Below are positions 4,784 through 61,194 of a DNA stretch of 64,000 bases, one piece after another. The stretch is from Spraguea lophii (taxonomy: Eukaryota > Microsporidia > Spragueidae), in assembly GCA_001887945.1 (NCBI GenBank), contig LDOQ01000071.1:1-64000 (forward strand), in the 5' to 3' direction. The notes below the pieces were generated by a model. It saw only the letters and a program-made list of their open reading frames with translations. It did no database searches and had not been told where the DNA came from. Made by a program: the position numbers and the translations under genes. Positions within the stretch are counted from its first letter, which is position 1. Every line of letters starts with the position of its first letter.

Positions 4784-5272
4784 TTTTTTTTTTACGAATG
4801 AAACTTTTATTTATCAAAGCTTCCTGGCCGGTTGCGGCCTACCATGGTCTGTGACCTTCGGTTCCTCGAGCGAAATTAAACTTGTACTAACTAGTTTCGC
4901 TACAGATATGCATTAATCTCATCTTACCTTATGCTCCAGAGTGTTAGGATTTTGCGTATGGTGCGCGTCGCCGCCCCCACTTCCAGCTCTTAAGGAATTC
5001 CCAGCCTCTTTCGTTGCATAGTATTGGCCGAGTCACAAATCAATACAGGGATTGCAACTACATCAGCTAAACACTACTTTAATCTAGTAGCGGGGCCGTC
5101 ATACAAGGCACAGCTATGCTGCACTATCGAAACCTCACCCACTCAACAACCTTTTTCTTCTCTTCTGCGTTTATTATTATTTTTTTTTTGAAAATTTTTT
5201 CTGGATGAGGGATTCGAACCCGCCAGGCTTGGGGTTTGGTTACCACCCCACGACCACTGGGCCAGACGGGAC
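4784..5272 (-). mobile_element. tRNA-derived SINE, nearly intact copy 1
   Basis: Read on the minus strand, the element starts at 5272 with GTCCCG and a tRNA-like head. It carries an A box TGGCCCAGTGG (5254-5264) and a B box GGTTCGAATCC (5210-5220), both good matches to the RNA polymerase III internal promoter. Next come an A-rich spacer, an unrelated body of about 330 bp and a tail with AATAAAAGTTTCAT, ending in 10 A's (T run at 4784-4793). It is almost identical to the copy at 53524-54028 and clearly more GC-rich than its surroundings. No clean target-site duplication was seen. A short open frame across the head is an accident of the SINE, not a gene. It needs an outside reverse transcriptase to move; none is visible here. 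Confidence 0.88.
5210..5264 (-). promoter_or_regulatory. Internal Pol III promoter (A and B boxes) of SINE copy 1
   Basis: A box TGGCCCAGTGG at 5254-5264 and B box GGTTCGAATCC at 5210-5220 on the minus strand, 33 bp apart as in a tRNA gene. The same boxes are exact in copy 2 (54009-54019 and 53965-53975). Confidence 0.75.
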
Positions 5273-5912
5273 TTTGTTTTTTCACAAGAGGAAGGAAACC
5301 CCTTTTAATTATTGGTTTTTTACAATTATTATATTCCACGGACAGTAATAATCAATGGTCTTAAATAGAGATACTGAGGTCTTCACATGATATTGTGCGA
5401 TTATTGTCCTTTTTTATATTTAAGAGATTCCTAAGCCATAACTTAAATATTTTTTTAATTGATAATTTACTTTTTTATTTTGTTAAAATTTTATTTTAAT
5501 CAACAGAGAAAGTTTACTTATTAAAGGACCAGGTTTATTTTTATTTTTAAATCCATTCTATCTTGTTACTTTTTTTACATACATTTTTCAAAATTTTAAA
5601 ATAAAAATACTTATAATTATCCTCCTTCTTTCCGTGTATCCTCACAGCTAAAAATCGATTAATTATTTCTGCAGCAATAATTTCCATTATCTTTTAGAAA
5701 TTTATTTTACAATAAAAATCATTTCATATTATTATTATTCGTATAAAATATTTAATAACCATTGAACTATATATACACAATTTTAAATATTACAAAAACT
5801 ATTTTTACAACTTAACTATATTATTCCTTTTCCTCTGTAAATTATATGTAACTGGTTGGTTAAAATATAAAATAAAAGAATATATATTATAAATTTTTAT
5901 TATTTTTTTTAA
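5273..5912. other. Intergenic DNA between SINE and RPABC4 gene
   Basis: AT-rich, with somewhat GC-richer patches at 5285-5310 and 5620-5690. The second patch overlaps the doubtful short frame listed separately. No other feature recognised. Confidence 0.4.
5547..5687 (-). CDS. Possible short protein of 46 residues (doubtful)
   Basis: ATG at 5687 to a stop at 5547-5549 on the minus strand. The product begins MEIIAAEIINRFLAVRIHG and has a balanced composition that is unusual for random AT-rich sequence, but there is no CCC signal, no recognised domain and no family support. It could equally be a fragment of a decayed gene. Confidence 0.2.
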   Translation of the reverse strand: MEIIAAEIINRFLAVRIHGKKEDNYKYFYFKILKNVCKKSNKIEWI

Positions 5913-6068
5913 TCATCTTGCTAAATATTGAACACTTTTATCGGTTCTTATTTTTGTAAATATCCTATATCCACATTCTGAGCATCGTATTGGATCTTTA
6001 GCTCTTATAACATTTTGTTTCTTACATTCTTTACATTGATAATTAAAAAACTTTTCTTCTTCCTCCAT
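5913..6068 (-). CDS. RPC10: RNA polymerases I/II/III shared subunit RPABC4
   Basis: A 51-residue protein that is the smallest zinc-binding subunit shared by the three nuclear RNA polymerases (ABC10-alpha, RPB12). It carries CKEC near residues 12-15 and CSEC near 29-32, followed by GYRIFTKIRT and the typical C-terminal LAR. The four cysteines bind one zinc ion. Length is at the low end for the family but complete. The start is set by AACCC directly before the ATG. A 61-residue frame on the same strand just upstream (6005-6190) is a frame shadow. The gene is divergent from TAF7, with 175 bp between the two starts, so the two probably share a promoter region. Confidence 0.9.
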   Translation of the reverse strand: MEEEEKFFNYQCKECKKQNVIRAKDPIRCSECGYRIFTKIRTDKSVQYLAR

Positions 6069-6243
6069 GGGTTATATAAATTTTTATTTTTTAGTAGTAA
6101 ACGAAAATTCACATTTTTACAATGTCGTATTTTCCAAATATTCTTTAAAAAATATTTTGGTGATTGATGAATTGAAAGTTTCCTTTTCATTTAATGAAAA
6201 ATAGAATAACAATTATTGATTACAAAAAACACATTTCTAGCCC

Positions 6244-6942
6244 ATGGAAGAACAACTAATTTTAGATCCTACTGATGATATCAAAGAAATATTAACAACA
6301 ATTTTACATTCTGATAAAATATCCGATATAAAACTTGAAGCTTTTGAAGAAAATGAATTTTATTTTTTATTCCAAGATAAAAAATACAGAGCATCAATAA
6401 TAAAGCTTCCTACGATAATAGAATCTTATAAAACAGCAGATACTAAACAAATGCACAAAATAACTGATATATCCAATAGACTTAAAATATGGCCTCTGGA
6501 TTATTCAGAAGAAAAAATTAATGAGGAAAAGAAAAAACTTGTCTTATCTGGAATAACACCTCCTATGAAATATGTAAAAACCAGAAGATTTAAAAAAAGA
6601 ACAAAAAATGTTATTGATGATAATGTAGAACAGAAAGTATATGAGCTTCTTAAAAAAGAACATGATGCAATTAAAACCACGGTAGAAATGATTGAAGAAA
6701 AAAATATAATAGAAGAACTTAAAATAGAAAGAAAAGAAGAAATAGAAAAGGTTGAAGAATCAGAAGAGGCTAAAATGTTTAAACAGAAACTTAAAGATCT
6801 TAATGAAAAATTAGAACAGAAAAAATTATTCTTAGCTAAGGCACCAAATATAATTATTAAAAAAAGATTTGAAGCAATGATTGATGAATTAAATAAAGAA
6901 ATAGATGAAGTTAAAGAAAATATAAAAAAGGTAAATAATTAA
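6244..6942 (+). CDS. TAF7: TFIID subunit TAF7
   Basis: A 232-residue protein with the TAFII55 N-terminal domain: LPTIIESYKTADTKQ near residues 55-69, DISNRL near 75-80, then GITPPMK (103-109) and the basic RRFKKR (114-119), all in the usual order. The C-terminal half is a charged, Glu/Lys-rich coiled coil. TAF7 is part of TFIID, where it binds TAF1 and helps control pre-initiation complex assembly. GCCC immediately precedes the ATG. It is divergent from the RPABC4 gene and followed at 200 bp by SEC24. Family assignment is firm from the ordered motifs. Confidence 0.9.
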   Translation: MEEQLILDPTDDIKEILTTILHSDKISDIKLEAFEENEFYFLFQDKKYRASIIKLPTIIESYKTADTKQMHKITDISNRLKIWPLDYSEEKINEEKKKLVLSGITPPMKYVKTRRFKKRTKNVIDDNVEQKVYELLKKEHDAIKTTVEMIEEKNIIEELKIERKEEIEKVEESEEAKMFKQKLKDLNEKLEQKKLFLAKAPNIIIKKRFEAMIDELNKEIDEVKENIKKVNN

Positions 6943-7143
6943 ATCTTTAAATTAAAAATAAATTAAATAATTAAAAAGTTAATCATAATAAATAAAAGTT
7001 TTGAATTGTTTTTTTGAAGTTTAAAAATATTTATAAATTACATTTGAATAAAAAATCTATAAATCCAATGAATCAGATGCTTTGAATATAATCAATGCAT
7101 ATAAAAAATATTTATAATTTTTGTTTTATTAAAGATATCCCTT

Positions 7144-9729: not shown

Positions 9730-10623
9730 ATGTTTTTATTTATACAAATTAGTTTTCAAGTGCTCATAAGAAAAGAAATAAGAGATTTAACTGATAATGA
9801 ATGGATAGAATACAAGAATGGTGTTTTGGAATTAAGAAAAAGAGGTATGTTAGATGATATTGCAAAGTTTCACCAGGAATTAGAAAAATATGCTCATAAT
9901 CATGACAGGTTTCTTCCTTGGCATAGAATGCTTCTTTTATTTTTTGAACATAGATTACAATTTGTAACAAAAAATAATAAAATAACAATTCCATATTGGA
10001 ATTGGGCTTTAGATGCAGAAGATCCTTCAAATTCTTTTATTTTCACTGAAAAATATTGGGGAAATAAAAAATGTTTTGAAGTAAATTATCCAACTAAACA
10101 TTGCATAAAAAGAAATCAAAATCCAATGGATTCATTTTATTCCCTCTCCCAATTAAAAAATTTCCTCAAAAAAAATTTATCATATTCAAAATTTAGAGAA
10201 ATGTTAGAAACAGTACCACATGCAATAATACATATGAATGTTGGAGGTAAAGATGGAGATATGGCTACACTCTATAGTTGTACAGATCCTATATTTTGGC
10301 ATCATCACTCTTTTATAGATTATTTATGGTCATTAAAAAAAGATTTAAAAGGACAATATCCTACAAACACTGAAGAAGTTTTATATCCATTTAATAAAAA
10401 AATATCAGAAATAATTAACTTAGAAGATACAAATATAAAATATAAAAAATATCAACCTATGATAAAATCTATAAAAAATATTAATGCTGGAAAACTTTCT
10501 GAAGAATTTATAAATTTTCATCATTATGACATAAAGAAGATAAGAGAATATGAAAAAATTTTCAGAAATAAAAAAGATAATTCAATAATAAACAGAATTA
10601 TATCTCTGTTACTATGCCAATAA
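9730..10623 (+). CDS. Tyrosinase (type-3 copper enzyme), probably secreted
   Basis: A 297-residue tyrosinase or catechol oxidase. The CuA signature is complete: His56, then FLPWHR with His65, and Glu73 eight residues on; His48 is the likely first ligand. The CuB region has VPHAIIH (His164, His168) and DPIFWHHHSFID (residues 186-197), an exact match to the family signature. The IRKEIRDLTDNEW opening is also typical. The first 13 residues are hydrophobic and could be a short signal peptide, so secretion or delivery to the spore surface is likely but inferred. The start has no CCC motif. Tyrosinases oxidise phenols to quinones in melanin or cross-linking chemistry. Whether the gene came by transfer cannot be judged here; its base composition matches its neighbours. 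Confidence 0.9.
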   Translation: MFLFIQISFQVLIRKEIRDLTDNEWIEYKNGVLELRKRGMLDDIAKFHQELEKYAHNHDRFLPWHRMLLLFFEHRLQFVTKNNKITIPYWNWALDAEDPSNSFIFTEKYWGNKKCFEVNYPTKHCIKRNQNPMDSFYSLSQLKNFLKKNLSYSKFREMLETVPHAIIHMNVGGKDGDMATLYSCTDPIFWHHHSFIDYLWSLKKDLKGQYPTNTEEVLYPFNKKISEIINLEDTNIKYKKYQPMIKSIKNINAGKLSEEFINFHHYDIKKIREYEKIFRNKKDNSIINRIISLLLCQ

Positions 10624-15345: not shown

Positions 15346-16290
15346 ATGCAAATAACCGGAATATTATGCTTAACTTTGAATGTTTTATTAATGCCTAATG
15401 AATTTTCTATTAAAGGAAGTCAAGCTGGTAATGTTATGAAATTCAACGACGAGACCTTAGACATGACAGAAAACAGTCTAACAGGTTATAATAACAGAAA
15501 AATTATGAAAATGAATGGTGAAATTACATTTAAAATAACTGATGGGAAACCAAAAGGAGCATTAAGAAAAATAGATGTTGAATATGATTTAGAATTGAAT
15601 GGCTTTTTTATACAAAAATTACCGGATAATATTGACGATCAATTATCAATTGGATCAATGCTTTGTAAGGCTACAAAAAAAAGTGAAACGATTGATAGCA
15701 AATTATATAATAAAGCTGTCAACAACTATTGGGTAGTTTTTCGTTTGTTTGCTAACAATTTCTATGAAGATAAGAATCATTTTATTATAAGCTTTGAAAC
15801 TTTTAATGCTAGTGTTTATGATTATGGTGCTACCGATTCTGAAATAAAAAATACACCTGCAACAATAGATGTTAATACTATGCCTGGTGGTGTACCTAAC
15901 TTAACACAGTTGAAAATAGATGAGAAAAATTATCAAACAAGAATTAGTAAAAAAACTTTTTTTCTACAAATACCAAAATCTGAATTTGATTCATATCACA
16001 TACAAAAATTCGAATTAAAAATCGATGATAATTTACTTGCTAAAAAAATAGAAAATAAATTATTAGCGAACTTGTTTAAAATTAAAGTCGAATATAATAA
16101 TCAGGAAATACAGACGCTTAGTAAAGGAAAGCATGACAAAATATCAAATTTAGATAGCAAATCAAAAGATACGACAATAGATGTGCAGGATAACAACAAA
16201 GATTCCCAAGAAAAAAACGGATTTAAAAGTATTCTATCTCTTATGTTATGCTTTCAGGCCGTTTTATCCTCAATATTGATTTTCGTGTAA
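15346..16290 (+). CDS. Family G secreted or surface protein, copy 1
   Basis: A 314-residue member of a paralogous family also found at 22672 and 58910. It starts with a signal peptide (ITGILCLTLNVLL) and ends in a hydrophobic segment after a conserved NGFKSILSL, finishing ILIFV at the C-terminus. That end fits a GPI-anchor signal or a tail anchor. The core holds family motifs ITFKITDG, KIDVEYDLEL, MLCKATKK and the NNYWVVF region; a charged linker precedes the end. There is no known domain and no catalytic motif. It is probably displayed on the parasite surface or secreted. Paralogue similarity is about half of positions, with insertions. CCC lies three bases before the ATG. Confidence 0.8.
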   Translation: MQITGILCLTLNVLLMPNEFSIKGSQAGNVMKFNDETLDMTENSLTGYNNRKIMKMNGEITFKITDGKPKGALRKIDVEYDLELNGFFIQKLPDNIDDQLSIGSMLCKATKKSETIDSKLYNKAVNNYWVVFRLFANNFYEDKNHFIISFETFNASVYDYGATDSEIKNTPATIDVNTMPGGVPNLTQLKIDEKNYQTRISKKTFFLQIPKSEFDSYHIQKFELKIDDNLLAKKIENKLLANLFKIKVEYNNQEIQTLSKGKHDKISNLDSKSKDTTIDVQDNNKDSQEKNGFKSILSLMLCFQAVLSSILIFV

Positions 16291-16500: not shown

Positions 16501-16904
16501 AAAAAGATATTATTTTTTTATTTATTCAATATATTTTATTTATAAGATTTCTTGAATATTCAGACGCATATGTTTTTATATTCCTTTCCCTATATTTATA
16601 TTTTAATATTATATTTTCTTATGTTGAGAAGAACAAAAGCTTGTATATTGTTCATATAAACTTTTTTAAATTATAATAAAATTTTAACATAACATACATT
16701 ACTTTATATTATCTTATAATAATAAATATAATAATCATAATTAATTCATCAAAGCACATATTTATTTAATATTTCAATATAACATATAATTAACATATTT
16801 AAATTTATAATATTTTTATATTGAAAGTTATCTTATAATAATGAATTTATCTTAAACAATATTATAAAATTATTTATTATAAATAATATATTTCTTAAGA
16901 GAGA
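16501..16904. other. AT-rich intergenic DNA
   Basis: Some residual similarity to 23805-23900 just after the conserved flank, then plain A/T sequence. No gene seen. Confidence 0.4.
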
Positions 16905-17087
16905 AACGGTGACATCTATCATACGTGAAATATCAGGTTTTTGAACATATGATAAAATGAAATTAATGTATATATAGAATAGAGCCAGTTAATATAAGTT
17001 TAGATATGTTTTATGAACAAAGTATCATAGACCACAACAAGTGCAACCTGTCAGGAAATCGTTATAAATAAAAGTTTTATTATAAAA
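16905..17087 (+). mobile_element. 5'-truncated SINE copy
   Basis: Matches only the 3' half of the SINE on the plus strand: a degenerate ATGAAATTAATGTATAT block, the ACCACAACAAGTGCAACCTGTCAGGAA region and the tail ATAAATAAAAGTTTTAT followed by short A runs. No tRNA-like head is present, which fits 5' truncation during reverse transcription or later loss. Confidence 0.65.
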
Positions 17088-17653
17088 ATTAACATAATAA
17101 CTACTTTTATTAAAACGTATTACATGTAAGTATTATTTGAAATTAAGAATATTTTATTTAACCAATTATAATATTACATGTCATTAAAAAAATAAAACAG
17201 TCATATTTCTAGAAGCTTCCATTTTGTTAAATAATATATTATGCTCGGAAACCTTTGATTCTTAAATCTTTTGATTAATATATTCTGAATGTTAGAATAA
17301 ACATATTAATATTATTTTATTTTATTCTTTAAAATATCAGAATTTTAAGTATAATTGCATTATCTCGTTCTTCTCTTTTCTACAAAATTCTACACCTTTT
17401 ATGAGAATGTATTAAAAGGTCAGTACAAAAACATAGAGACATTTTATGGCTTAATCAAACCTTATTCTAATCTAACAACAAAATTGTATATAAACATATA
17501 TTTATTGATATTTTTTATATTATGGTTTATCTCATAATTTAAGGATATCTTTACATTTTGATGACCATTGTAATATAAACTCTTATTATTATTTTTTTTG
17601 AATTAATAAATCACCTAACAAAAAAATTTATAACAAAAATAATATTTTACCCC
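17088..17653. other. AT-rich DNA upstream of SEC31
   Basis: A 60-codon hydrophobic frame beginning with TTG at 17355 is present, but it has no start signal or family support. Nothing else recognised. Confidence 0.4.
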
Positions 17654-22251: not shown

Positions 22252-22628
22252 TGACCCATTTAGTCAAATGGTCGTGGAATGATATCCAAATTCTAAATCT
22301 AACGGGTTCGAACCCTCATTCAGAAGAATTTTCAAAAAAAAAGAATAAAAGATTGGTGAATGGGTGAGGGTTCGATAGCGTGACATTAATCGTGTCTTGT
22401 ATAATGGCCCACTCAACAGTTTTTTTCTCTTCTCTTCTGCTTTTTATTATTATTTTTGCGTTTTGAAAATTCTTCTAGGTGAGGGATTCGAACCCGTTAG
22501 ACTTAGTATTTGGATATCATCCCACAACCACTTGGTCAAACGGACAATATGCTTTAGGAACCAAAAATCATAATCTACCGTAATCAACTAGTTAGGAAAT
22601 TTTTATAAATAAAAGTCTCAGTAAAAAA
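22252..22628. mobile_element. Composite of two SINEs, heads facing each other
   Basis: 22252-22410 is a plus-strand SINE head: A-box-like region with ATGGTCGTGG, then GGGTTCGAACCCTC as B box, then the body up to AATGGCCC. 22411-22545 is a second head in minus orientation (GGATTCGAACC on the plus strand, TTGGTCAAACGG at its end). 22546-22627 is a plus-strand tail (GGAACCAAAAATC ... ATAAATAAAAGTCTCA plus A's). This order fits a second SINE or a partial copy landing inside an older one, with the middle of the older copy lost. It ends only 44 bp before the start of a family G gene. Confidence 0.75.
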
Positions 22629-22671: not shown

Positions 22672-23592
22672 ATGAAATTCGCCGGAATACTATGTTTAAC
22701 TTTTAATATTTTATTAAATCTCAATGAAGTTTATACTAAAAGATGTCAATGTAATAGTGTTATAAAATTCAGTAATGAAACTTTAAACATGATAGAAAGC
22801 AGCGTAGTGGTTTATGATAACAATAAAATCGTGAAAAAGAATAAAGATGAAATTACATTTAAAATAACTGATGGAAATATAAAAGGAATAGCTAGACGTA
22901 TTGATGTTGAATATGATATGGAATTGAGTGGCTTTGCTATAGAAAAATTATCTGACGACAACGGTGATCAGTTAGCAATTAGAGGAATGGTTTGTAAAGC
23001 TACTAAAAGAATAGTAACAGATAAAAACACGTCTAAAGGTTATGATTGTCTTAAAGACAACTATTGGATAATTTTTCCATTAGAAAGCCAGAATATTCAA
23101 GAAAATGAGGAAAATTTTAATATAATTTGGTCGACTTCGAACGCTAAAGTTTATGATTATATTAACGACAATACTACTTTAATAACAATCCCTGCTAGAA
23201 CCGAGGATAACGACTTAAAAGTAGACGAGAAAAATTATCAGACGGTATTTGCGTCCAAAAAGTTTTCCCTAGAGATACCAAAATCTAAGTTTTATTCATA
23301 TTGCATACACGCATTCGAATTAACATTTAATAATGCAGGGGAAAATATTAAAAAAATAATAAAGAATAATGATTCCACCTTAGAAGAAATACATAAATCT
23401 ACCCTTGAAACAGTAGAAAATAAATTATTAACGATGTTATGTGAAAAAAACTTACGAGATGAAGACTCGGCTTCAGATAGCAACCCGAAAACTACAGCAG
23501 TAGATGTCCAAGAAAAAAACGGATTTAAAAGTATTTTATCTCTCGTGTTATGTTTCCAGGCAATTTTGTCCTCGATATTGATTTTCTTCTGA
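22672..23592 (+). CDS. Family G secreted or surface protein, copy 2
   Basis: 306 residues, the closest relative of the gene at 15346. Signal peptide (FAGILCLTFNILL), then ITFKITDG, RIDVEYDMEL, MVCKATKR and DNYWIIF in the same order, then a variable linker. The C-terminal 25 residues are nearly the same as copy 1 (EKNGFKSILSLVLCF and the final LSSILIF). Both ends and both flanks are better conserved than the middle of the protein. Probably exported and anchored through its C-terminus. No known domain. Five C's sit just before the start. Confidence 0.8.
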   Translation: MKFAGILCLTFNILLNLNEVYTKRCQCNSVIKFSNETLNMIESSVVVYDNNKIVKKNKDEITFKITDGNIKGIARRIDVEYDMELSGFAIEKLSDDNGDQLAIRGMVCKATKRIVTDKNTSKGYDCLKDNYWIIFPLESQNIQENEENFNIIWSTSNAKVYDYINDNTTLITIPARTEDNDLKVDEKNYQTVFASKKFSLEIPKSKFYSYCIHAFELTFNNAGENIKKIIKNNDSTLEEIHKSTLETVENKLLTMLCEKNLRDEDSASDSNPKTTAVDVQEKNGFKSILSLVLCFQAILSSILIFF

Positions 23593-26033: not shown

Positions 26034-26460
26034 ACTTAATGAATTTGAATTCCTCATCCAGAAGAATTTTCAAAAAAATAGAATGATAAATAAAAGTTTC
26101 ATTAATAAAAAAAGTGGGTGAATTCAATAATGTAACATTAGTTATGCTTCGTACAATAACCCACTACTATTGGACAGAAATAGTATCGATCTAATATAAT
26201 TACAATCCCTGTCTTGATTTGTGATTCACCCAATACCATACCAATAAAAAGGTTAAAATCTCGTTAAGTATTATAGAATGTTTATTATAATATACACAAA
26301 ATTTTAACATTTTAAAGTATAATGTAAAACGATGTTAATGTATATCTGTAACGAACTCAATTAGTACAAGTTATTCGTATTTTAAAGAACCAATAATTTT
26401 AGATAACAGTGAATTGAACCCAACCAGAAAATCTCTATAAATAAAAGTTTCATAAAAAAG
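26034..26460 (+). mobile_element. Degenerate SINE with a second tail inserted
   Basis: Plus-strand copy lacking most of the tRNA-like head. It begins near the B-box end (CCTCATCCAGAAGAATTTTC) and follows the body (TACAATCCCTGTCTTGATTTG; GTAACGAACTCAATTAGTAC) to a tail AATAAAAGTTTCATAAAAAA at 26441-26459. A second tail, AAATAAAAGTTTCATTAAT plus A's, sits at about 26088-26113 inside it, so one SINE has inserted or recombined into another. Confidence 0.7.
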
Positions 26461-32925: not shown

Positions 32926-32990
32926 CCCGTGAACCTGTTTAGCTGAATTATCATGGGATGGTAGCCAAACACCAAACCAGACAAGCACCT
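32926..32990 (+). mobile_element. Degenerate SINE head
   Basis: The stretch from CCCGTG through GGGATGGTAGCCAAACACC matches the tRNA-like head of the SINE on the plus strand, including the region after the A box. The B box and body are not recognisable. Fragment only. Confidence 0.4.
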
Positions 32991-35834: not shown

Positions 35835-35879
35835 AAGATTAAATGTATGATTGGAAACCTGGACCATACACTTAATCTT
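35835..35879. repeat. 15-bp inverted repeat (hairpin)
   Basis: Arms AAGATTAAATGTATG (35835-35849) and CATACACTTAATCTT (35865-35879) pair with one mismatch around a 15-base loop. It abuts a SINE fragment and may be part of the element or its insertion site. Confidence 0.6.
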
Positions 35880-36045
35880 GGTGATTTAGCTTATAAGGTA
35901 AAATGAGATTAATGCATATATGTAGCGAAACAAATTAATACGAGTATATTACATGTTATAATGAATTAAATATCATATGTTAGGGTGAACCATAATCATT
36001 TACCATGCTAAAATTATCATCAGAGAATTATAAAAATAGAATTCA
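35880..36045 (+). mobile_element. SINE 3' fragment
   Basis: Plus-strand match to the SINE's central-to-3' part: TAAGGTAAAATGAGATTAAT, then GTAGCGAAAC and GGGTGAACCATAATCATTTACCATG. No head; the usual AATAAA tail has decayed. Confidence 0.6.
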
Positions 36046-48257: not shown

Positions 48258-49799
48258 TTAAATCGAAAGAAAATTTTCAATAGATTTAGAAAGAGATTCT
48301 ATACTTTTCAAATATAAGCAAAAATCTTCACTTTCAAAATATGAATACATACTACCGACATAATCTGCTAAATGATAATTTTCTATAGAAATTAAATACT
48401 CCTTTAAGAGTCTCAATGATGGTGCAATTTTAGGCATAAATTTAGCTGATGATAGTAATTTTTGTAGAATCGGTTTTACTTTATTTATACATATCAATTG
48501 GGAAGCCATGGTTGAAGATTCTGATATAAACATTTCATTATAAAACGCGGCTAAATCTGCACGAAATGAAAAAATATATTTTAAATATTCGGGTGATAAA
48601 CCATTTACATTTGGTAAATCTTTAAATACATTTGATTCATTTAACAACATTACAGACATGAATTCTATTCTTTTTACCAAAAAACACGGGCCTTCAAAGG
48701 AAGAGTAAATAGCAAAACTAAATTTATCAATATATTCCAGCATTTTTGTAATTTTAGATTCTCCCCTTTTATACATAAATATTTCATTTGAATCAATACA
48801 TTTACATAATAAACTTTCTTTGGCTAATAGGACATTTAAATTAGGTAGAAGAATTTTCAATCTATATAATGATTCTATAAATATTTTTGTAGCATATTTA
48901 TCTGAATAAAGAAATATATTTCTGCGGACTTTTTTATGTTTTGATAATGGTTTCATATCAAGAAGTACAAATAGAATATGTCTATCATTCACTAATATTT
49001 TTAATATCTTAATAAGTTTTTTACTTATTGTTCTCATTTCTTCAATAATATTATTTATTTCATGATTTTCTAACATTTGCCCGTATGTCTTAATAAAATT
49101 TACAAAATTTGTCATTTTTTGATTTAAACTTTGCAAACCATTAACAGACTGTAATACGTTCTCACGCATAACCACATTCTTAACGTTAAATAGTAGATCT
49201 TCAAAAAAATATGCTTTGAAAATTTTATTTTTAAAATGTAAAAATTTTTCATATTTTTCTTTATCATCTATTGCAATTTTTATTTCTTTTTTACATCTTT
49301 TAACCGCTTCTTTTAAATCTTTTTTTAAAGATAAATCTTTTATTTTTGTATATTTTGAAAAAATATCATTAATTTCTTTACAATCCTCATCGTTAGAAAT
49401 ATTGTCATTGGTTATTATATTATTCAACAACGTAAAACATATGCTTGGGTTGAATACTTTTTCCGTCTCATTTGATACCAAATGATATTTTGTTGTTAAA
49501 AGCTCACTTAAATATTCTTCATTCGATTTCAAAGTATCTGTTTCTTCAGGAATATTTTCGTTTGTCATAGAATATTCATCAGCAACTTGTAAAAGAGGTT
49601 TATTTAAACCTTCGATTATTTCATCAATTTCATCTTGTCTTTCATTTTCATCGATAATAGTATAATCATCAGTAATTTTCATTAATGCCGTATTAGAACC
49701 ACTGTTCTTGACTTTTACTATAAGAAGCGAAGTTTCTTTTTTTATTATTTTGTAACGAAATAAGAAATATAATACACCAAAAGTATTTAACATAAACAT
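48258..49799 (-). CDS. Family S secreted protein, copy 1 (divergent)
   Basis: 513 residues, paralogous to the genes at 50458 and 54872. I choose the ATG at 49799 because it lines up with the starts of the other two copies; an upstream TTG at 49829 would add ten residues. A hydrophobic head (MLNTFGVLYFLFRY) reads as a signal peptide or anchor and is followed by the family motif VKNSGS. An acidic linker (to about 110) precedes a helical body with family landmarks such as EYLKYIFSFRADLAAFYNE near 400 and a C-terminal IESLSKSIENFL. About 25-30% like the other copies. No known domain. A lineage-specific secreted family is the best description. Confidence 0.75.
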   Translation of the reverse strand: MFMLNTFGVLYFLFRYKIIKKETSLLIVKVKNSGSNTALMKITDDYTIIDENERQDEIDEIIEGLNKPLLQVADEYSMTNENIPEETDTLKSNEEYLSELLTTKYHLVSNETEKVFNPSICFTLLNNIITNDNISNDEDCKEINDIFSKYTKIKDLSLKKDLKEAVKRCKKEIKIAIDDKEKYEKFLHFKNKIFKAYFFEDLLFNVKNVVMRENVLQSVNGLQSLNQKMTNFVNFIKTYGQMLENHEINNIIEEMRTISKKLIKILKILVNDRHILFVLLDMKPLSKHKKVRRNIFLYSDKYATKIFIESLYRLKILLPNLNVLLAKESLLCKCIDSNEIFMYKRGESKITKMLEYIDKFSFAIYSSFEGPCFLVKRIEFMSVMLLNESNVFKDLPNVNGLSPEYLKYIFSFRADLAAFYNEMFISESSTMASQLICINKVKPILQKLLSSAKFMPKIAPSLRLLKEYLISIENYHLADYVGSMYSYFESEDFCLYLKSIESLSKSIENFLSI

Positions 49800-50457: not shown

Positions 50458-51993
50458 TTACTCAGTTTCTATTTTAGAAGACGATAAAAGATCTTCTATA
50501 GCTTGAGAAAGTACTTTTATACTCTCTGAATATTGAGAATATATTGCGCCTTGAAAAAATGAATTTATTCCACTAATATAATCAGCCAAACGATAACTTT
50601 CCTGGTTAATAGCAGCTTCATATAAACTTTTTATTCCCGGTTCAATTTTAAGTATTAAAATCGATGATGTCAATATTTTTTGTAAAATAGGTATAAAATT
50701 ATTCAGAGATTTTAAATGTGTTTCTGTGGTGTTTGATTCCGATCTAAATATATCATGGTATAAAACTGATAAATCTGTACGAAACGTAAAAAAAAATTTT
50801 AAATATTCAGCAGAAAAATCGCATCCAATGTCTAGGATTTTAATTCTATATGAATGTCTCAGCAAATAAAGAAATATATATTCTAATGTTTGTATCATAA
50901 GACACGGACCTCCTAAGGAAGAACAATGAGAATCGTAAAATATATTCATGAAGCCTATCATTTCATTAAGCTTATGCTCTCCTCGGGTGTACATAAATTC
51001 TTTATATGATTTTTTGGATTTACTAATAAGTCCTTCTCTTTTTATTATTGTATATAATTCATTCAGGTTATTTTTAAAACTATCAAACGACTTTAAAAAT
51101 TTAGAAGTCATCAATTCATCCATATATAAGTTCTTATTTATTGGGGGGTCTTGGTCATCTGCCGATTGATTATACATTTCTAATGGTAAATACAAAATAC
51201 TTTGATTCTCAATGGTTGTGTCGATAACTTCTTTAAGGTGTTTCTCATCTTTTAATAATTTCTCCATTATTTCTTTCATTTCGTTATTATCAAATACACG
51301 AACATATTTTTTTAAAAAAAGCATTATATTTTCGAACTTTTGATTGAAACTCACGATACCATTAATTAAGTGTAACATAGATTCTGATAAAACCACTTCT
51401 TTAACAGCACATGCCATATTCTCAAAATAAAATGTTTTGTATATTTTATTTTTAAAATTATAAAATATATATTTTTTTATTTCTTCATTTTCTGCTGATA
51501 ACATTTCTGTTTTACAAATTTTGGCTTTTTCATGTAATAATCCTTTTGAAATACCATCTTTTATATTTTTATATGTTGAAATAATATTTCTTGCTTCTTT
51601 ATGTTCTTCTAGAATGCAATCACTATGATCATTTATAATTTCATCCAATATCATAAAAGCAATGGCTGTATTGATTTTATCCACGCTTCTTGATAATGGA
51701 CAGTCACACGATGGGGTTAATGGTTTATGTAATATCTGATCCGAAGATTTATTTGTTTCTTCATGTTGGTTGTTAGAGTCTACAACACTACATGCACCAA
51801 CATCCTCGGGTTTATCGGTTTTTGATTCTATATGTATTTTATCGTTACTTATGCTGTCGTTATCAACTAGATCTACAGTTGAAATATCCGAACCACTATT
51901 TTTTACATTACAAACATAATATTTAAAATCGTTTTTCATTATATTGTAACATAATAAAAATTTCATCGCAGCAAATATTTTTAAAAAAATCAT
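50458..51993 (-). CDS. Family S secreted protein, copy 2
   Basis: 511 residues starting MIFLKIFAAMKFLLCYN, a likely signal peptide. The VKNSGSD motif, then an acidic linker (to about 105) and a helical body follow. It shares a practically identical first 95 residues and a second identical island (about 315-350, around KSYKEFMYTRGEHKLNE) with the gene at 54872, while the sequence between differs. EYLKFFFTFRTDLSVLYHDIF marks the C-terminal third. Eight cysteines or so are scattered through the body. No known domain; no CCC motif at the start. Likely exported and possibly host-facing. Confidence 0.78.
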   Translation of the reverse strand: MIFLKIFAAMKFLLCYNIMKNDFKYYVCNVKNSGSDISTVDLVDNDSISNDKIHIESKTDKPEDVGACSVVDSNNQHEETNKSSDQILHKPLTPSCDCPLSRSVDKINTAIAFMILDEIINDHSDCILEEHKEARNIISTYKNIKDGISKGLLHEKAKICKTEMLSAENEEIKKYIFYNFKNKIYKTFYFENMACAVKEVVLSESMLHLINGIVSFNQKFENIMLFLKKYVRVFDNNEMKEIMEKLLKDEKHLKEVIDTTIENQSILYLPLEMYNQSADDQDPPINKNLYMDELMTSKFLKSFDSFKNNLNELYTIIKREGLISKSKKSYKEFMYTRGEHKLNEMIGFMNIFYDSHCSSLGGPCLMIQTLEYIFLYLLRHSYRIKILDIGCDFSAEYLKFFFTFRTDLSVLYHDIFRSESNTTETHLKSLNNFIPILQKILTSSILILKIEPGIKSLYEAAINQESYRLADYISGINSFFQGAIYSQYSESIKVLSQAIEDLLSSSKIETE

Positions 51994-53512: not shown

Positions 53513-54042
53513 ATGAATAAAACTTTTTTTTTTTTTTTTTTACGAATGAAACTTTTATTTATCAAAGCTTCCTGGCCGGTTGCGGCCTATCATGGTCTGT
53601 GACCTTCGGTTCCTCGAGCGAAATTAAACTTGTATTAACTGGTTTCGCTACAGATATGCATTAATCTCATCTTACCTTATGCTCCAGAGTGTTAGGATTT
53701 TGCGTCTGGTGCGCGTCGCCGCCCCCACTTCCAGCTCTTAAGGAATTCCCAGCCTCTTTCGTTGCATAGTATTGGCCGAGTCACAAATCAATACAGGGAT
53801 TGCAACTACATCAGCTGAACACTACTTTAATCTAGTAGCGGGGCCGTCATACAAGGCACAGCTATGCTGCGCTATCGAAACCTCACCCACTCAACAACCT
53901 TTTTCTTCTCTTCTGCGTTTATTATTATTATTTTTTTTTGTTTTGAAAATTTTTTCTGGATGAGGGATTCGAACCCGCCAGGCTTGGGGTTTGGTTACCA
54001 CCCCACGACCACTGGGCCAGGCGGGACTATGAATAAAACTTT
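53513..54042 (-). mobile_element. tRNA-derived SINE, intact copy 2, with target-site duplication
   Basis: The element runs from GTCCCG at 54028 to the oligo(A) end (an 18-T run on the plus strand, 53524-53541). The A box is at 54009-54019 and the B box at 53965-53975, both exact. It is nearly identical to copy 1 throughout. ATGAATAAAACTTT occurs at 53513-53526 and again at 54029-54042 directly outside the head, a 14-bp target-site duplication. Together with the exact tRNA-like 5' end this shows insertion by target-primed reverse transcription. It lies between two family S genes. Confidence 0.92.
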
Positions 54043-54314: not shown

Positions 54315-54780
54315 CCGCTTAGTTAAATAGTTATGTGGTGGTAGCCAAATTTTAAACTTAACGGATTCGAATCCCTTTTCAAAAAGAATTTTCAAAATAA
54401 AAAAAAAAAAAGGTAATTGCGATAAAAGAAGAGAAAAGATAATTGGGTGTTAAAAATCCGATATTATAAATATACTATGTTTTGTATTACAGTTCAAATA
54501 CCGATTAAAAAAATGTTTAATTGGGTGTAATTACAATCCTGCATTGACTAGTGATTCGGCCAATATTATGTTAAAAAAAGATTAAAATCTTATTGATATT
54601 GAAAGAGGGCCGCGATAAACATCATACGTAAAAATCTAATGCCTAGATCATAAAGTAAGGTGAGATTAAAACATATGCATGGAACCATATTAGTATAAGT
54701 TACTCCTGTTTTAAGGCATCAACAATCTTAAATAATAACGAGTATAACCAATTAGAACGTTTTAATTATCATTAAAACGT
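54315..54780 (+). mobile_element. SINE, old full-length copy
   Basis: Plus strand. A head with TGGTGGTAGCCAAATT and B box GGATTCGAATCCC, an A run, then the body (TTACAATCCTGCATTGACTA; GTAAGGTGAGATTAAAAC) and a decayed tail near ACCAATTAGAACG. Many substitutions. It lies next to and opposite in direction to young copy 2, and ends about 90 bp from the third family S gene's 3' end. Confidence 0.78.
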
Positions 54781-54871
54781 TGTTTAAAAAACTTTATATT
54801 TCTAACTAAAATATCTAAGAAATTATTCGAATATAAAATTAAAGAATAAGATAATATTTACATTTTTATTT

Positions 54872-56404
54872 TTATAGAGATTTTGATTCAGAAAATGATA
54901 AAAAGTCTTCTATAGCTTGAGAAAGTATTTTTATATTTTCTGAATATTGAAAATACATTGAGCTTTGAAAAAAAGAATTTATTCCACTAACAGAATCAAC
55001 CAAATGATAGCTTTTACTTTTTAAAGCGGATTCATATAAATCATTTATTCCTGGTTTAATTTTAAGTATTAAACATGATGACACCAATATTTTTTGTAAA
55101 ATAGGTATAAAGTTATTAATAGATCTTAAATATGCTGTCATGGTATTCGATTTAGATTTAAATATATCATAATATAAAACTGATAAATCTGTACGAAACG
55201 TAAAAAAATATTTTAAATATTCGGTAGAAAACCCGTTTGCAATGTCGAGGTTTTCATACCGATGTGGATATCTTATCGTCTTTAAAATCATATATTCTAT
55301 TCTTTGTACCATAAGACACGGACCTCCTAAAGAGGAACAGTGAGAATCGTAAAATATATTCATGAAGCCTATCATTTCATTAAGCTTATGCTCTCCTCGG
55401 GTGTACATAAATTCTTTATATGATTTTTTGGATTTACTAATAAGTCCTTCTCTTTTTATTATTGTATGTAATTCATTCAGGTTATTCTCAAAATTAACAA
55501 ACAACACTAAAAATTTAAAAGTCATCAATTCATCCGTATATAAGTTCTTATTTATTAGGTGATCTTCGTCGTTTGATTGATTATACATTTCTAATGGTAA
55601 ATACAAAATATTTCGATCATCAATGGCTATTTCGATAACATTTTTAAGGTGTTTCTCATCTTCTAATAATTCTACCATTATTTCTTTCATTTCGCTATTA
55701 TCAAATACAGTAATATATTTTTTTAAAAAAAGCATTATATTTTCTAACTTTTGAGTAAAACTTCCAATACCATTAATTAATTGTAACATTGATTCCGATA
55801 AAACCACTTCTTTAACAGCATATGCCATATTCTCAAAATAAAACGTTTTGTATATTTTATCTTTAAAATTAGAAAATATATCTTTTTTCATCTCTTCATT
55901 TTCTGTTGATAACATTTCCGCCTTACAAATTTCGGCTTTTTCTTGTAATAATTCTTTTGAAATAACATCTTTTATATTTTTATATGTTGAAACAATATTT
56001 TTTGCTTCTTTATATTCTTCTAAAATATAATCATCACGATTATTTATAATTTCATCTAATATCATAAGAGCAATGTCTATATTGATTTTATCCATATTTT
56101 TTGATAATGGATAATCAAACGATGGGGTTAATGGTTTATGTAATATCTGATCCGAAGATTTATTTGTTTCTTCATGTTGGTTGTTAGAGTCTACAACACT
56201 ACATGCACCAACATCCTCGGGTTTATCGGTTTTTGATTCTATATGTATTTTATCGTTACTTATGCTGTCGTTATCAACTAGATCTACAGTTGAAATATCC
56301 GAACCACTATTTTTTACATTTAAAACATAATATTTAAAATCGTTTTTCATTATATTGTAACATAATAAAAATTTCATCGCAGCAAATATTTTTAAAAAAA
56401 TCAT
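54872..56404 (-). CDS. Family S secreted protein, copy 3
   Basis: 510 residues from the ATG at 56404, chosen because it aligns with copy 2; an in-frame ATG at 56449 would add 15 residues (MNCFKNINKVLCKHN). The signal peptide, VKNSGSD motif and acidic linker are the same as in copy 2, residue for residue, up to about position 95. After that the two differ at roughly a quarter to a third of positions except in the island around KSYKEFMYTRGEHKLNE. EYLKYFFTFRTDLSVLYYD marks the C-terminal third. Function unknown; probably exported. Confidence 0.78.
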   Translation of the reverse strand: MIFLKIFAAMKFLLCYNIMKNDFKYYVLNVKNSGSDISTVDLVDNDSISNDKIHIESKTDKPEDVGACSVVDSNNQHEETNKSSDQILHKPLTPSFDYPLSKNMDKINIDIALMILDEIINNRDDYILEEYKEAKNIVSTYKNIKDVISKELLQEKAEICKAEMLSTENEEMKKDIFSNFKDKIYKTFYFENMAYAVKEVVLSESMLQLINGIGSFTQKLENIMLFLKKYITVFDNSEMKEIMVELLEDEKHLKNVIEIAIDDRNILYLPLEMYNQSNDEDHLINKNLYTDELMTFKFLVLFVNFENNLNELHTIIKREGLISKSKKSYKEFMYTRGEHKLNEMIGFMNIFYDSHCSSLGGPCLMVQRIEYMILKTIRYPHRYENLDIANGFSTEYLKYFFTFRTDLSVLYYDIFKSKSNTMTAYLRSINNFIPILQKILVSSCLILKIKPGINDLYESALKSKSYHLVDSVSGINSFFQSSMYFQYSENIKILSQAIEDFLSFSESKSL

Positions 56405-57084
56405 GTTATGTTTACATAAAACTTTATTTATATTTTTAAAGCAATTCATTTCTAGCTTATCATTTACAATTTTCTATTATTAGAAAATTATATATTCTCA
56501 GAAATAAACTATTTTTTAAAGCTTTAGAGATTTTAAGTAGGTAAAAAAGTGTTAAACTTTATATCATTAAAACCGCACAAATATGTATAATAGACAAAAA
56601 AACGAATTTATAAATATTTAAGTTAAGTATTTATTAAAATAGACATTAATCCATAATAAAACTATTAAAATTCCAATAATAGCTTATGGGCCTATATTAA
56701 TGATCTTTATTTATTATATTACATATAATAACTATTGTTAAAATTAACTTGAAATATATAATTGTTAATCATTGGCAAATTAGTAAATGATTGAACCGAT
56801 TTAGTTAATATTGGGTTCGATTACAACATTTTTAGTTAATAGATATAATCAATGATTCCTTTAATGTTACAAACGTGTAAAAACAAAAATATATAGTTTT
56901 TTTAAACATTTCACGTACTTGTTTTAAATCCTTTTATGGGTATATAAATAACGAAAATAGGTGTTATGCAATCGATATAGTAAACATCACTTCTTGCTCA
57001 TACTATAAATTTTTAGATACCAAAGTATTTTGCTCTATCTTTCTGCTTTTTATAATATTTTTTAAATTATTATTAAAGCAAATC
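56405..57084. other. AT-rich intergenic DNA
   Basis: Upstream of family S copy 3. No gene or element recognised except the start-proximal bases shared with copy 2. Confidence 0.4.
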
Positions 57085-57360
57085 GACCCAATACAGCTCC
57101 TTATAGTCTAAGACTGTTAGTTCTTTAAAGCACACTTAAATTTATATTAAATTGTTTCATTAGATATATGTATTATCCTCATATTATCTTATGTCTAATA
57201 CCATTTTATTTATATATGATGTACATAATTATATATCGATACTTACGTATAATTTCTAATCTTTTTTCTAATACAATATTGACAGAGTCGCAATCACCAC
57301 TACGATTATAATCAATATTACTTAATCATTACTCCAATTTAATTGTTGAATAAAATTGAA
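57085..57360 (-). mobile_element. Strongly decayed SINE fragment
   Basis: Minus-strand match to the 3' two thirds of the SINE: TTAGTTCTTTAAAGCACAC, ATTAGATATATGTATTATCCTCATATTATCTTATG, then ACAATATTGACAGAGTCGCAATC and AATATTACTTAATCATTACTCCAATTTA. No head. Confidence 0.55.
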
Positions 57361-57799
57361 ACCCAATAAACAAATATATATAAAAAATGAAAAATATTCA
57401 GATTAAAATATTATATGGCATATTATTTTTTCTTAATTTTTAATAGATTCTATATATTAACATATAAAAATGATAATACTTTTTCGAATGGTTCTTGGTT
57501 TAAAATTAAAGCTCACATTGTTTATAACGTAAAAAATAAAAAAATGTCAATCGTGAAATTAAAGCTTCAATAGTAAAAATAAATATTAAATAAATATATA
57601 AATATAAATATGTTTATTATAAAAAATAAGAATGCTTATAAAACTTAACCCTTTTTTTAAAATGATTTTTTTTTATTTATTCTGGTTATGACTGTTAATA
57701 TCGTTGGGGGTATTATAATCTTTCCTTCTGTTTGTTGTTTTATTTATGTTAACTATTCCATTAAAATATCACATTCTATATTCTTCTATGACGAGTATT
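57361..57799. other. AT-rich intergenic DNA
   Basis: Nothing recognised apart from possible further decay of the integrase relic at the right edge. Confidence 0.35.
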
Positions 57800-58260: not shown

Positions 58261-58263
58261 TCA

Positions 58264-58731: not shown

Positions 58732-58869
58732 TATCAAATAATATATTACCATTGAAAATTGTAATAGATATTATCGTTAAGGGGCCATTGATAATTATAC
58801 ATAATCAACTATCATATACAGAATGTTGAATCAAATATTTATAATTTTACAAAAAAAGAAATTTTTTTT

Positions 58870-58909
58870 TGATCTTTTTAACCTTTTATAATTTTAAATT
58901 TCATAACCC
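58870..58909 (+). promoter_or_regulatory. Start-proximal block of family G gene 3
   Basis: TGATCTTTTT followed by AATTTCATAACCC up to the ATG; a weaker version of the block at the other two family G genes. Confidence 0.45.
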
Positions 58910-59872
58910 ATGATGAGAATCGCTAGAATATTATACTATATTTTAAATGTTTTATTGGTATCAAATAGATATTATATTAAAAGTAGTGGTTTAATGCTGG
59001 ATAGAACAAATATGATCATTGACACCAGAGAAAATATAGCCTTCCGATCAACAACAATCGATATGGATAAAGAAGTTAACTTTATTTTAAATGATAATGG
59101 GTGGTGGCCTATAAGCGATAAAGAAATTGCTTCATGTGATTTGGAACTGGTTAGCTTTGTTGTACAACAAGAAACAGAGTTACCAACAATTAAAGGAATG
59201 CTGTGCAAAGTAACTACAAAAGATTGTCAAATTGACGAAATCAGTTCTCCTTGTGCTCAACATTATTATGCATATTTTATTTTAGGAGACAAAGATATAT
59301 TAGAAGAAGAAGATTTTTTTAAAATAGCAATTATTCTAGAAAATGTTAAATTTTATTTTTTCGATGAAGACCAAATTGATATAAACGAAGTAGTTAAAAT
59401 AAATAATCGTGAATTAGAGTTAAAAGAAAAAAATTATGCTTCATGGGTTCAAAGTAATGATTATTTTTTAAAAATCTCAAAATCAAATAAGATATTTAAT
59501 AAAATATCGGTTATGGTTCAAGAAAATTCTGATTTAATGTTGAAATGTAAAGGTGATATTGATTATTGGATTAGTTTAGATAGGCGGCACGATTCACCTG
59601 CATTGAATTTAATAAAAATGGTATTTCGACCTGAACCAAATGAAACTGAAGATTCTGTCAACAAAGAAACAACTGAGAAATCTGATAATACGGTCATAAA
59701 AAATTCCGGTGAGCAACCAATTAAAATTAAAGAATCTGACAACAAAAAGGAAACTGAAAATTCTGATGATGGGAACATAAAAAAGTCCGAAAAAGAAAAC
59801 GGATTTAAAAACATCATATCTCTTATGTCGTACCCGCAAATTGTTTTGTCATTAATATTGATTTTTTCTTAA
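58910..59872 (+). CDS. Family G secreted or surface protein, copy 3 (divergent)
   Basis: 320 residues. Signal peptide (IARILYYILNVLLV), a core with weak counterparts of the family motifs (LELVSFVVQ; GMLCKVTTK, YYAYFIL), an acidic, Ser/Asn/Lys-rich linker with repeats of KxSDNxxxKxxE type (about 245-295), and the family ending ENGFKNIISL plus a hydrophobic tail (VLSLILIF). The similarity to the other two copies is low in the core but clear at both ends. ATAACCC directly precedes two adjacent ATGs; I use the first. Likely anchored or exported like its relatives. Confidence 0.75.
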   Translation: MMRIARILYYILNVLLVSNRYYIKSSGLMLDRTNMIIDTRENIAFRSTTIDMDKEVNFILNDNGWWPISDKEIASCDLELVSFVVQQETELPTIKGMLCKVTTKDCQIDEISSPCAQHYYAYFILGDKDILEEEDFFKIAIILENVKFYFFDEDQIDINEVVKINNRELELKEKNYASWVQSNDYFLKISKSNKIFNKISVMVQENSDLMLKCKGDIDYWISLDRRHDSPALNLIKMVFRPEPNETEDSVNKETTEKSDNTVIKNSGEQPIKIKESDNKKETENSDDGNIKKSEKENGFKNIISLMSYPQIVLSLILIFS

Positions 59873-60721
59873 ATAAAGAAGATTAATATTTATTTTTTTT
59901 TAAAATTAAATAATTTATAAGTTTGACTCTAAACCGGAAAACCTAATTTTAAATTCTTGAAGATGCTTTCATAGATCTTATTGAAAGTTGTTGAAGGATA
60001 AATAATATTCATTTATTTACTATTTTCTTTTTTGATATTCAAAGATCTCATGAATCACATTTAAATACTTAATATTTGACATATTTTGATACTTTACTTC
60101 TCTGTATATGGATTTAAAAATTCTTTTTATAATAATATTATCTCTTTATTTTTTATAACATTTGATAATCTATTACATATGTTTATTTATCTGAGATTCC
60201 CTTTTAAATTAGTATATACCTAATTTTTAAGCATGAAGTGTACAACAAAAACCATATAAAAATTTTAAAATTATATTTCGTCATTATATCGAAATATCTC
60301 ATTTCTGAAATAAAATAATTAACAAATCATATAATACATATAAGAAGATTTTATACAATTAAGATATATAGCATTTTTAACAAGAACGTAGTAAACTAAT
60401 TACGAATTCATAGATGATGATTTACATAGATAATTTAATACTCATGAAAAAAATTAAATTTTTGGTAATATATAAATTTATACATAATACATAGTATATA
60501 TGACATTTGTAATAAATGTATTCAATATGTTTATATAAATAAACTTACTAAAAAATATGATTAAAAGCATATACATAAAAATATCAACAAAACAGAAATA
60601 AATAGAATAATGAAAACTTTGTATGAAATAAAAGGTGGATTAAAACGTAATCATATTGTGTATAATTTATATAACAGTTTTTCGGTGTTCAAAAGTGAGT
60701 TATTTTCACATACGATTAAGC
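59873..60721. other. Gene-poor AT-rich stretch
   Basis: Unlike the other two family G genes, this one is not followed by the conserved 3' flank. Nothing else recognised over about 850 bp. Confidence 0.45.
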
Positions 60722-61194
60722 TTTTTTTATTAATGAGACTTTTGTTTATAGAAGTTTTCTAGTCTGCTTCCATTGTGGTTTATGACTTATGATTTCTGAA
60801 ACACACTTAACTTCATCGTAACTGGTTTACGGGAGATATACATTAACTTCATCTTACATTATGTTCCTAAGTATTGGTATTTAACGCATAACGTACGTCA
60901 CTGACATCTCCTAGTTTCTTAGAGATTCGCAATTTCGTTCTTGGTCTAGTATTATCCAAATCCTAAAATTAGTATAGAAATGGTAACAACATCCGTTAAA
61001 TATTATTTTTATCTAGTTGATATCATCCTACAAGACATAATTGAAACTATGTTATTAAATTCTCACCAACCTAACAACATTTTGCTTCTTCCCTTCTAAT
61101 TTTTAATTTTTTTTGAAAATCCACCTGGACAAGTGATTCAACCCCGCTAGACTTGGGTTTGGTTACCACTCCACGACCATTCAATCAAACGGGT
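60722..61194 (-). mobile_element. SINE, full-length, diverged
   Basis: Minus strand. Tail with T run at 60722-60728 and AATGAGACTTTTGTTTATAG (like the copy at 58264, suggesting a subfamily), the body and a tRNA-like head ending GGTTACCACTCCACGACC; the B box is decayed (GTGATTCAACC). Confidence 0.8.

Follow-up and report, generated by a model that had tools for sequence, protein, structure and literature searches.

A recently active tRNA-related SINE family dispersed in the genome of the microsporidian Spraguea lophii

The window analysed here is a stretch of 64,000 nucleotides of Spraguea lophii DNA (positions 1-64000 of LDOQ01000071.1, the contig labelled C45) from an assembly of 5,273,041 bases (5.27 Mb) in 73 contigs. 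Its GC content is 17-28% in 2-kb steps, and some 12 copies of one short interspersed nuclear element (SINE) are scattered along it, while no tRNA gene was found by ARAGORN. A reading of the letters alone (the original prediction) had listed twelve members of one tRNA-derived SINE family in this window. Our analysis indicated a real, recently active family of tRNA-related SINEs in a group of organisms where SINEs are hardly known. We give a probability of about 0.94 to the reading that the copies form a dispersed tRNA-related SINE family, active until recently, whose older copies are long-standing. Copies outside the window were examined in loci, i.e. contig stretches retrieved from the assembly and numbered with an L, and the divergence of a copy is given as K. 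The copies in the window, with the parts of one young copy that are referred to below, are the following.

1577-1971, minus strand: old copy, unlisted in the original prediction; profile 4-424; 27.9 bits, E 7e-8; K 0.45 over 225 sites
4784-5272, minus strand: young full-length copy, no exact target-site duplication (TSD); 527 bits; K 0.017
16900-17088, plus strand: 5'-truncated old copy; profile 287-469; 82 bits; K 0.44
22252-22628, plus strand: rearranged copy with an inverted piece at 22407-22537; 101, 79 and 30 bits
26034-26460, plus strand: old copy without the 5' part of the head; 227 bits
26084-26113, plus strand: stray 30-nt tail fragment between the head and body of 26034-26460; 93% match
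32926-32990, plus strand: probable isolated head fragment; 9.4 bits, E 0.03, weak
35853-36045, plus strand: 5'-truncated copy; profile 295-432; 41 bits
46751-47246, minus strand: old copy, two adjoining profile matches (7-396 and 351-470); 253 + 17 bits
53513-54042, minus strand: young full-length copy with both 14-bp TSDs, the query throughout; 526 bits
54029-54042, minus strand: 5' TSD of this young copy, identical in sequence to 53513-53526
54009-54019, minus strand: A box TGGCCCAGTGG; consensus 10-20
53965-53975, minus strand: B box GGTTCGAATCC; consensus 54-64
53554-53559, minus strand: AATAAA, 12 nt before the A-tail; consensus 470-475
53513-53526, minus strand: 3' TSD of this young copy, directly behind the A-tail, identical in sequence to 54029-54042
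54315-54780, plus strand: old near full-length copy; profile 8-451; 236 bits
57072-57360, minus strand: old 5'-truncated copy; profile 215-454; 50 bits
58264-58731, minus strand: old full-length copy; 364 bits
60722-61194, minus strand: old full-length copy; 304 bits

The profile used for these matches combined the query copy 53513-54042 with 8 young and 15 diverged copies. The decoys, which totalled 704 kb, comprised ten Markov shuffles and the reversed window and gave a single match, at 3.1 bits. BLAST matches numbered 76 in the sample and 0 in the decoys. Eleven of the twelve predicted members scored 40-527 bits (pieces of one member combined), confirming that they belong to one family; member 32926-32990, which matched profile positions 4-43 at 9.4 bits, is probable but not proven. 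It had been stated beforehand that the family would have to be given up if copies aligned only over the head; they aligned along the body as well. The predicted nested copy at 22252-22628 proved to be a SINE copy, not a plain nest: it is rearranged (positions 3-177 in plus orientation, 2-130 inverted, 392-468 again in plus orientation), and no duplication around it was seen by eye. The two copies described as almost identical, 4784-5272 and 53513-54042, are identical at 481 of the 489 bases aligned, and only the latter has an exact TSD.

Without its tail the element is 487 bp long, as measured on copy 53513-54042, which is within the range of SINEs (roughly 100-700 bp), and it follows the plan that had been proposed: a tRNA-like head with A and B boxes, an A-rich spacer, a body, AATAAA and an A-tail. 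The two boxes, 33 nt apart, agree without mismatch with the consensus patterns for such boxes (TRGYNNARNNG in the case of the A box), and an internal promoter for RNA polymerase III (Pol III) is predicted near the 5' end of the SINE from these sequences. The consensus has no coding capacity, its longest stop-free frame of 73 amino acids (aa) being equal to the shuffle median. An Rfam search of the element returned four matches at chance level (E 0.09-8.5, each with a score well under the gathering threshold), and one of the whole window returned none at E up to 1; an origin of the body from a known small RNA was rejected on this basis. When the head was aligned with the 57 tRNA genes of the genome, the best match was tRNA-Arg(TCG), with a z of 8.7 against shuffles, followed by Ser(GCT) and Met(CAT) with a z of 7.4 each. 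Judged by its promoter boxes and this alignment, the head is probably tRNA-related, with more than one candidate for the parent tRNA.

Exact TSDs of 10-16 bp were found around 29 of the 38 separate young copies that had both ends in view. The initial count was 30 of 40, from which two rows were dropped as the same copies in a second locus. Among mismatched flank pairs, which served as the control, 12 of 1560 had a TSD-like match. The commonest TSD length was 14, most were 12-16 bp, and the duplication started directly after the A-tail. In the 30 rows with TSDs this tail was 7-19 nt long and consisted almost entirely of A. The 5' end fell at consensus 1-4 in 36 of the 38 copies, the other two being truncated at 115 and 328. 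Truncation is under-counted in this set because most of its copies were the top matches of a full-length query, and 5'-truncated old copies are common in the window. One young copy (L021) lies inside an older SINE with a 15-bp duplication of that SINE at the site, and another (L019) separates two parts of an older copy, a nest judged by its flanks. No nick-site consensus stood out among the 30 rows, and an L1-like TT/AAAA nick site was rejected, there being no such preference in these rows; the lack of A at position -1 is forced by the definition of the duplication.

We identify the element as a SINE because it combines dispersal over many contigs, a fixed 5' end, an A-tail, TSDs, some 5' truncation and promoter boxes with the absence of coding capacity and the presence of a young set. 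In the proposed cycle, Pol III would start at the first bases of the SINE and the transcript would get or keep oligo(A) at its 3' end. The reverse transcriptase of a long interspersed nuclear element (LINE) of the same genome would then prime on the oligo(A) tail at a nicked chromosomal site, and the copy would be inserted there by target-primed reverse transcription.

Several results weigh against this reading. Nine of the 38 young copies lack an exact TSD of at least 10 bp; among the copies without one are both members of an inverted pair in L027, the window copy 4784-5272 and the copy in L030, the last of which has a near-match duplication by eye. The Rfam tRNA model did not match the head at E up to 10. 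The only run of four T (T4) in the SINE, TTTT at consensus 80-83 (elsewhere T-runs reach at most TTT), could end Pol III transcription early, and full-length transcription therefore needs read-through of this T4. Among 30 tRNA genes whose flanks were retrieved, the first downstream run of four or more T was at least five long in 27 and four long in 3, and read-through of the T4 in the SINE seems plausible. Finally, the 3' end of a partner LINE, sought at contigs C48 and C1, was not found.

Two rearranged loci were noted in passing. In L027, two young SINEs lie inverted at 763-1248 (plus strand) and 1502-1988 (minus-strand count); their flanking duplications look exchanged by eye, as if recombination between the SINEs had inverted the intervening DNA. 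In L046, a SINE appears by eye to be interrupted at about 1690-2960 by a DNA transposon whose terminal inverted repeats match each other (TAGGGTTTCCCG...).

A multicopy coding gene, a satellite or an assembly artefact could also multiply a sequence of this kind, and several contigs start within a copy: at least six (C15, C25, C54, C56, C58 and C60) carry the tail pattern at bases 96-123, so the assembly seems to break at the SINE. However, the 30 fetched young loci have different flanks, most with their own TSD, the copies span K 0 to 0.48, and there is no open reading frame. A multicopy coding gene, which the prediction had named as a possible pitfall, is excluded by the absence of any stop-free frame beyond the shuffle median. 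The distinct flanks and TSDs refute this group of explanations, which we regard as extremely improbable.

The size of the family was estimated from three samples. Profile segments numbered 14 in the 64 kb of the window, 12 in the 91 kb surrounding 30 tRNA genes and 15 in 85 kb flanking 29 young copies, corresponding to 1153 ± 308, 694 ± 200 and 926 ± 239 segments genome-wide, respectively. Some copies consist of two segments (46753/46865, 22263/22407, L046 and L019); after merging, the samples held 12, 11 and 14 copies, or about 990, 640 and 860 genome-wide. In 155 kb there were 26 profile segments, about 23 copies. Four of the 11 copies at tRNA loci sit at tRNA terminators themselves. We thus estimate the family at 600-1,000 copies genome-wide, and SINE segments make up 5-7% of the sampled bases. 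With at most two mismatches, a head pattern matched 146 times and a tail pattern 132 times genome-wide, while the reversed controls gave 0 and 0; these matches are mostly the young set, with the middle-aged L046 head among them.

Recent activity, claimed from the near-identical pair, was borne out by the young set as a whole. Young copies differ from their consensus by 0.2-5.4%, mostly 0.4-3%, and from each other by a median of 2.2% (doubled copies included in both figures). Estimating ages from divergence, as had been suggested, revealed a young burst plus older copies up to K 0.48. The query copy has a GC content of 45%, the old copies an average of 29%, and G-to-A together with C-to-T account for 84 of the 105 differences between the young and the old consensus. 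Hypermutation resembling repeat-induced point mutation was considered and found unsupported: in old copies the C-to-T fraction was 0.41 at CG, 0.34 at CA, 0.45 at CT and 0.41 at CC, without any CpA excess, so that the change looks like ordinary AT-biased decay. In addition, changes other than C:G-to-T:A transitions make up 46% of those in old copies. At certain sites almost every old copy differs (15 of 16 at position 9, for example), and part of the young-old difference is therefore subfamily history, which may have run in either direction.

Decay was uneven along the element. In 26 old copies, the fraction of GC sites kept was 0.50 in the A box, 0.57 between the boxes and 0.63 in the B box, and 0.44 and 0.42 in the body; AT sites were kept at 0.88-0.90 in the head versus 0.75 in the body. 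Such a pattern is expected if the head is important in those copies that multiply.

The AATAAA motif raises the question of how the A-tail arises. The tail might be added rather than copied, either by cleavage and polyadenylation at AATAAA or by polyadenylation after Pol III termination as in the mammalian T+ SINEs (B2, Dip, Ves), which likewise have a tRNA-related head and AATAAA close to the A-tail. In the consensus 12 nt separate the motif from the A-tail; the motif was kept in 12 of the 16 old copies with an aligned tail, and its AT sites were kept at 0.85 versus 0.75 in the body, all of which would fit an added tail. However, passages of PMC8466645 give T4, TCTTT and TATTT as the minimal terminators of T+ SINEs, and the terminator that these SINEs carry between AATAAA and the A-tail is absent here: the interval holds none of the three, only TTT. 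A template-encoded A-tail would give the same pattern, and the AT sites of the head were also kept. An added tail is a minority possibility on this evidence.

A source of reverse transcriptase was sought in the assembly, and nine reverse-transcriptase matches were obtained genome-wide. L031/L070 have aspartyl-protease and RNase H domains and are of the long terminal repeat (LTR) type, and L033/L071, L032 and L036 look by eye like the same type. L035 and L038 belong to a single frame of 1239 aa that looks TERT-like by eye, and L037 is a weak reverse-transcriptase relic. Two matches are LINEs: the decayed L034 on contig C48, in or next to which lies a young SINE flanked by a 14-bp duplication, and L039 at the start of contig C72. 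Ty3/gypsy elements were rejected as the source of the SINE: when the profile was also applied to the loci of the reverse-transcriptase matches, it detected in the two long LTR-type loci one SINE copy (in L071), with its own duplication, and no shared part.

L039 has a 479-aa frame at the very start of C72, with an endonuclease-like part and the start of a reverse transcriptase, both matching below the Pfam cut-offs. It matched LINE-1 ORF2 protein chains with an E of about 1e-9, and one of its twenty database protein matches was named LINE-1 reverse transcriptase-like (Smittium culicis). An 83-aa endonuclease piece precedes this frame in another frame (by eye), and the locus has a GC content of 43%, like the SINE. 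We consider L039, an endonuclease/reverse-transcriptase LINE by its sequence whose frame is cut by the contig start, a candidate helper of the SINE. A DNA search with a piece of L039 gave fragments only, the other recognised reverse-transcriptase core of LINE type being the decayed L034. A search for the LINE 3' end by way of stray tails in fetched loci did not find it among the matches listed, which were mostly due to chance. As the tail pattern near the start of at least six contigs indicates that repeats break the assembly, we infer that the missing LINE part lies in an assembly gap.

The most surprising part of the finding was the position of some copies next to Pol III genes. A SINE in the same orientation was found at the terminator T-run after 7 of the 57 tRNA genes, namely those for Lys, Asn, Ala, Leu and three for Ile (L041, L046, L054, L069, L123, L136 and L137), with the profile match beginning 9-27 nt behind the tRNA end. 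From the density of copies, 0.13 such junctions are expected for 57 tRNAs (P 1e-10). The junctions were first seen in 4 of 30 tRNAs, and the 27 fetched afterwards gave 3 versus 0.06 expected (P 4e-5). Downstream of tRNAs, opposite-orientation copies came no nearer than 81 nt; upstream, where at least 75 nt were viewed (mainly for the first 30 genes), the nearest copies were at 77 and 87 nt, both in opposite orientation. One of nine 5S genes (L151) is probably followed by a 5'-truncated SINE, which scored 10.1 bits against -0.6 for the best of 500 shuffles. Six other fetched 5S genes had no SINE within 70 nt downstream, and those in L025 and L030 had none close downstream. With K 0.09-0.40, the tRNA-linked SINEs are middle-aged or old. 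As a whole, SINE insertions are not concentrated at tRNAs, since these 7 junctions compare with hundreds of copies elsewhere.

Two explanations of the junctions were weighed, and we lean slightly to template jumping, to which we give a little less than an even chance. The reverse transcriptase at work on SINE RNA would jump onto a pre-tRNA or 5S transcript at its 3' U-tail, copy this transcript as well and so fuse a new gene copy to the SINE. The placement of same-orientation SINEs just past the terminators of seven tRNA genes and one 5S gene is consistent with this, and so is the 5' truncation of the SINE at two of the seven tRNA junctions and at the 5S junction. All seven junction tRNAs are among the 26 genes whose anticodon is shared with another gene (P 0.0025, with the two Met genes counted as different), although duplicate tRNA genes may simply tolerate insertion better. 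In addition, template switching by LINE machinery has been published, according to the text available from PMC2104539 for mammals and PMC4476161 for Magnaporthe.

If the gene and the SINE had been inserted together, a duplication should flank the whole unit. In a looser test for TSDs around the whole tRNA plus SINE unit, the combined P was 0.32 and only L137 beat all of its 32 controls; this speaks against template jumping. An anchored test gave a combined P of 0.03, mainly through L137, but it was the second of the two and was framed after the flank of L137 had been seen. In L137, 12 of the 13 bases behind the A-tail recur just before the tRNA, and 0 of 52 controls were as good, whereas L041 shows no duplication. 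Six of the seven junction tRNAs matched the tRNA model end to end, unlike published chimeric retrogenes, which are known mostly as pseudogenes; this, too, speaks against template jumping.

Alternatively, the SINE machinery may insert just behind Pol III terminators, an explanation that we hold possible but less probable. The same position and orientation at eight Pol III genes would follow directly from it. However, it requires duplications flanking the SINE alone, and these were unsupported (combined P 0.54): the candidate at L054 is short (8 of 9 bases) and was equalled by 11 of 56 controls, and that at L069 (7 of 10 bases) ranked 2 of 56. Nor was there a general pull of SINEs to T-runs. A run of five T within 25 nt upstream was present at 7 of 73 sampled segments, four of them at tRNA genes, compared with 17% of random windows.

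The stronger proposal, that the SINE machinery jumps onto Pol III transcripts and writes mostly intact tRNA genes, and probably 5S genes, with about one in eight tRNA genes being a retrocopy, is on balance unlikely. If true, it would make a retrotransposon a source of tRNA genes, and the junctions with tRNA and 5S genes raise the testable question of whether LINE template jumping creates working tRNA genes. Cellular RNA fused 5' of a retroelement, as at these junctions, is described in parts of PMC2104539 (U6-LINE/SINE chimeras) and of PMC4476161 (WEIRD-SINE-LINE of Magnaporthe). Here the partners are tRNA genes and probably a 5S rRNA gene, with six of seven tRNAs matching end to end, and the fusion mechanism is putative. 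Retroelements downstream of tRNA genes also occur in Dictyostelium, where TRE3, like the SINE here, lies in the same orientation as the tRNA gene. TRE3 lies 40-150 bp and Skipper-2 8-23 bp downstream of the tRNA, and both are autonomous, whereas the junctions here involve a SINE at 9-27 nt and a minority of its sites.

By their description, MgSINE, Foxy, AfuSINE2 and other tRNA-derived SINEs of fungi (Magnaporthe, Fusarium and Aspergillus) resemble the present family in their tRNA-related head, Pol III boxes and TSDs. The genomes of their hosts are much larger. Sections of PMC5063351 give a length of 472 bp for MgSINE and of several hundred bp for fungal SINEs, with copy numbers of 11 to about 160, compared with 600-1,000 in 5.27 Mb here. 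For microsporidia, no description of a SINE was found among the best-ranked literature matches, which covered few subscription papers. The statement in the original prediction that no well-described microsporidian SINE was known fits the literature found, with one qualification: in the part of PMC3614468 available, the repeat table of Nosema bombycis, likewise a microsporidian, has a single line for a SINE class (28,669 bp, 0.18% of the genome), the only place where the word occurs. The portions of PMC7313128 and PMC13174016 obtained contain no words beginning with 'sine', and the whole word SINE (the plural form was not looked for) is absent from that of PMC4202319. The microsporidian retrotransposons named in the same portions of PMC4202319 and PMC13174016 belong to the LTR elements and the LINEs. 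In viral contigs there was no match to an exact 25-base pattern of the head.

Microsporidia are a model of genome reduction. With several hundred SINE copies in 5.27 Mb, the present family adds a class of retrotransposon to them. It also provides presence/absence markers for parasite populations and a record of AT-biased mutation, and Pol III transcription in a reduced genome could be studied with it.

The microsporidian origin of the window, which had been claimed from its letters alone, was supported by its genes. A Sec23/Sec24 protein encoded there is 41% identical to a protein named SEC24 of Astathelohania contejeani; the next named match, among 10 proteins found (its own included), was SEC24 of Nosema bombycis. 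A Pfam scan of the window identified Sec23 domains and V-ATPase subunit H.

Some other features of the window and the genome were noted. Two sets of look-alike frames were recognised by eye, one at 15346-16290, 22672-23592 and 58910-59872 on the plus strand with a hydrophobic C-terminus in common, the other at 48258-49799, 50458-51993 and 54872-56449 on the minus strand; three of the six (those at 15346, 50458 and 58910) were scanned with Pfam and gave zero matches. L110 (C48:20400-22700) contains, by eye, a decayed element that is bounded by long terminal inverted repeats and has an integrase-like stretch, and similar repeat ends may lie at 57300-57580 of the window. Elsewhere, an 820-aa open frame has an Argonaute-type (Piwi) match. 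Finally, a 297-aa frame at 9730-10623 on the plus strand of the window contains a tyrosinase domain (E 1.2e-29), which is unexpected for a microsporidian.

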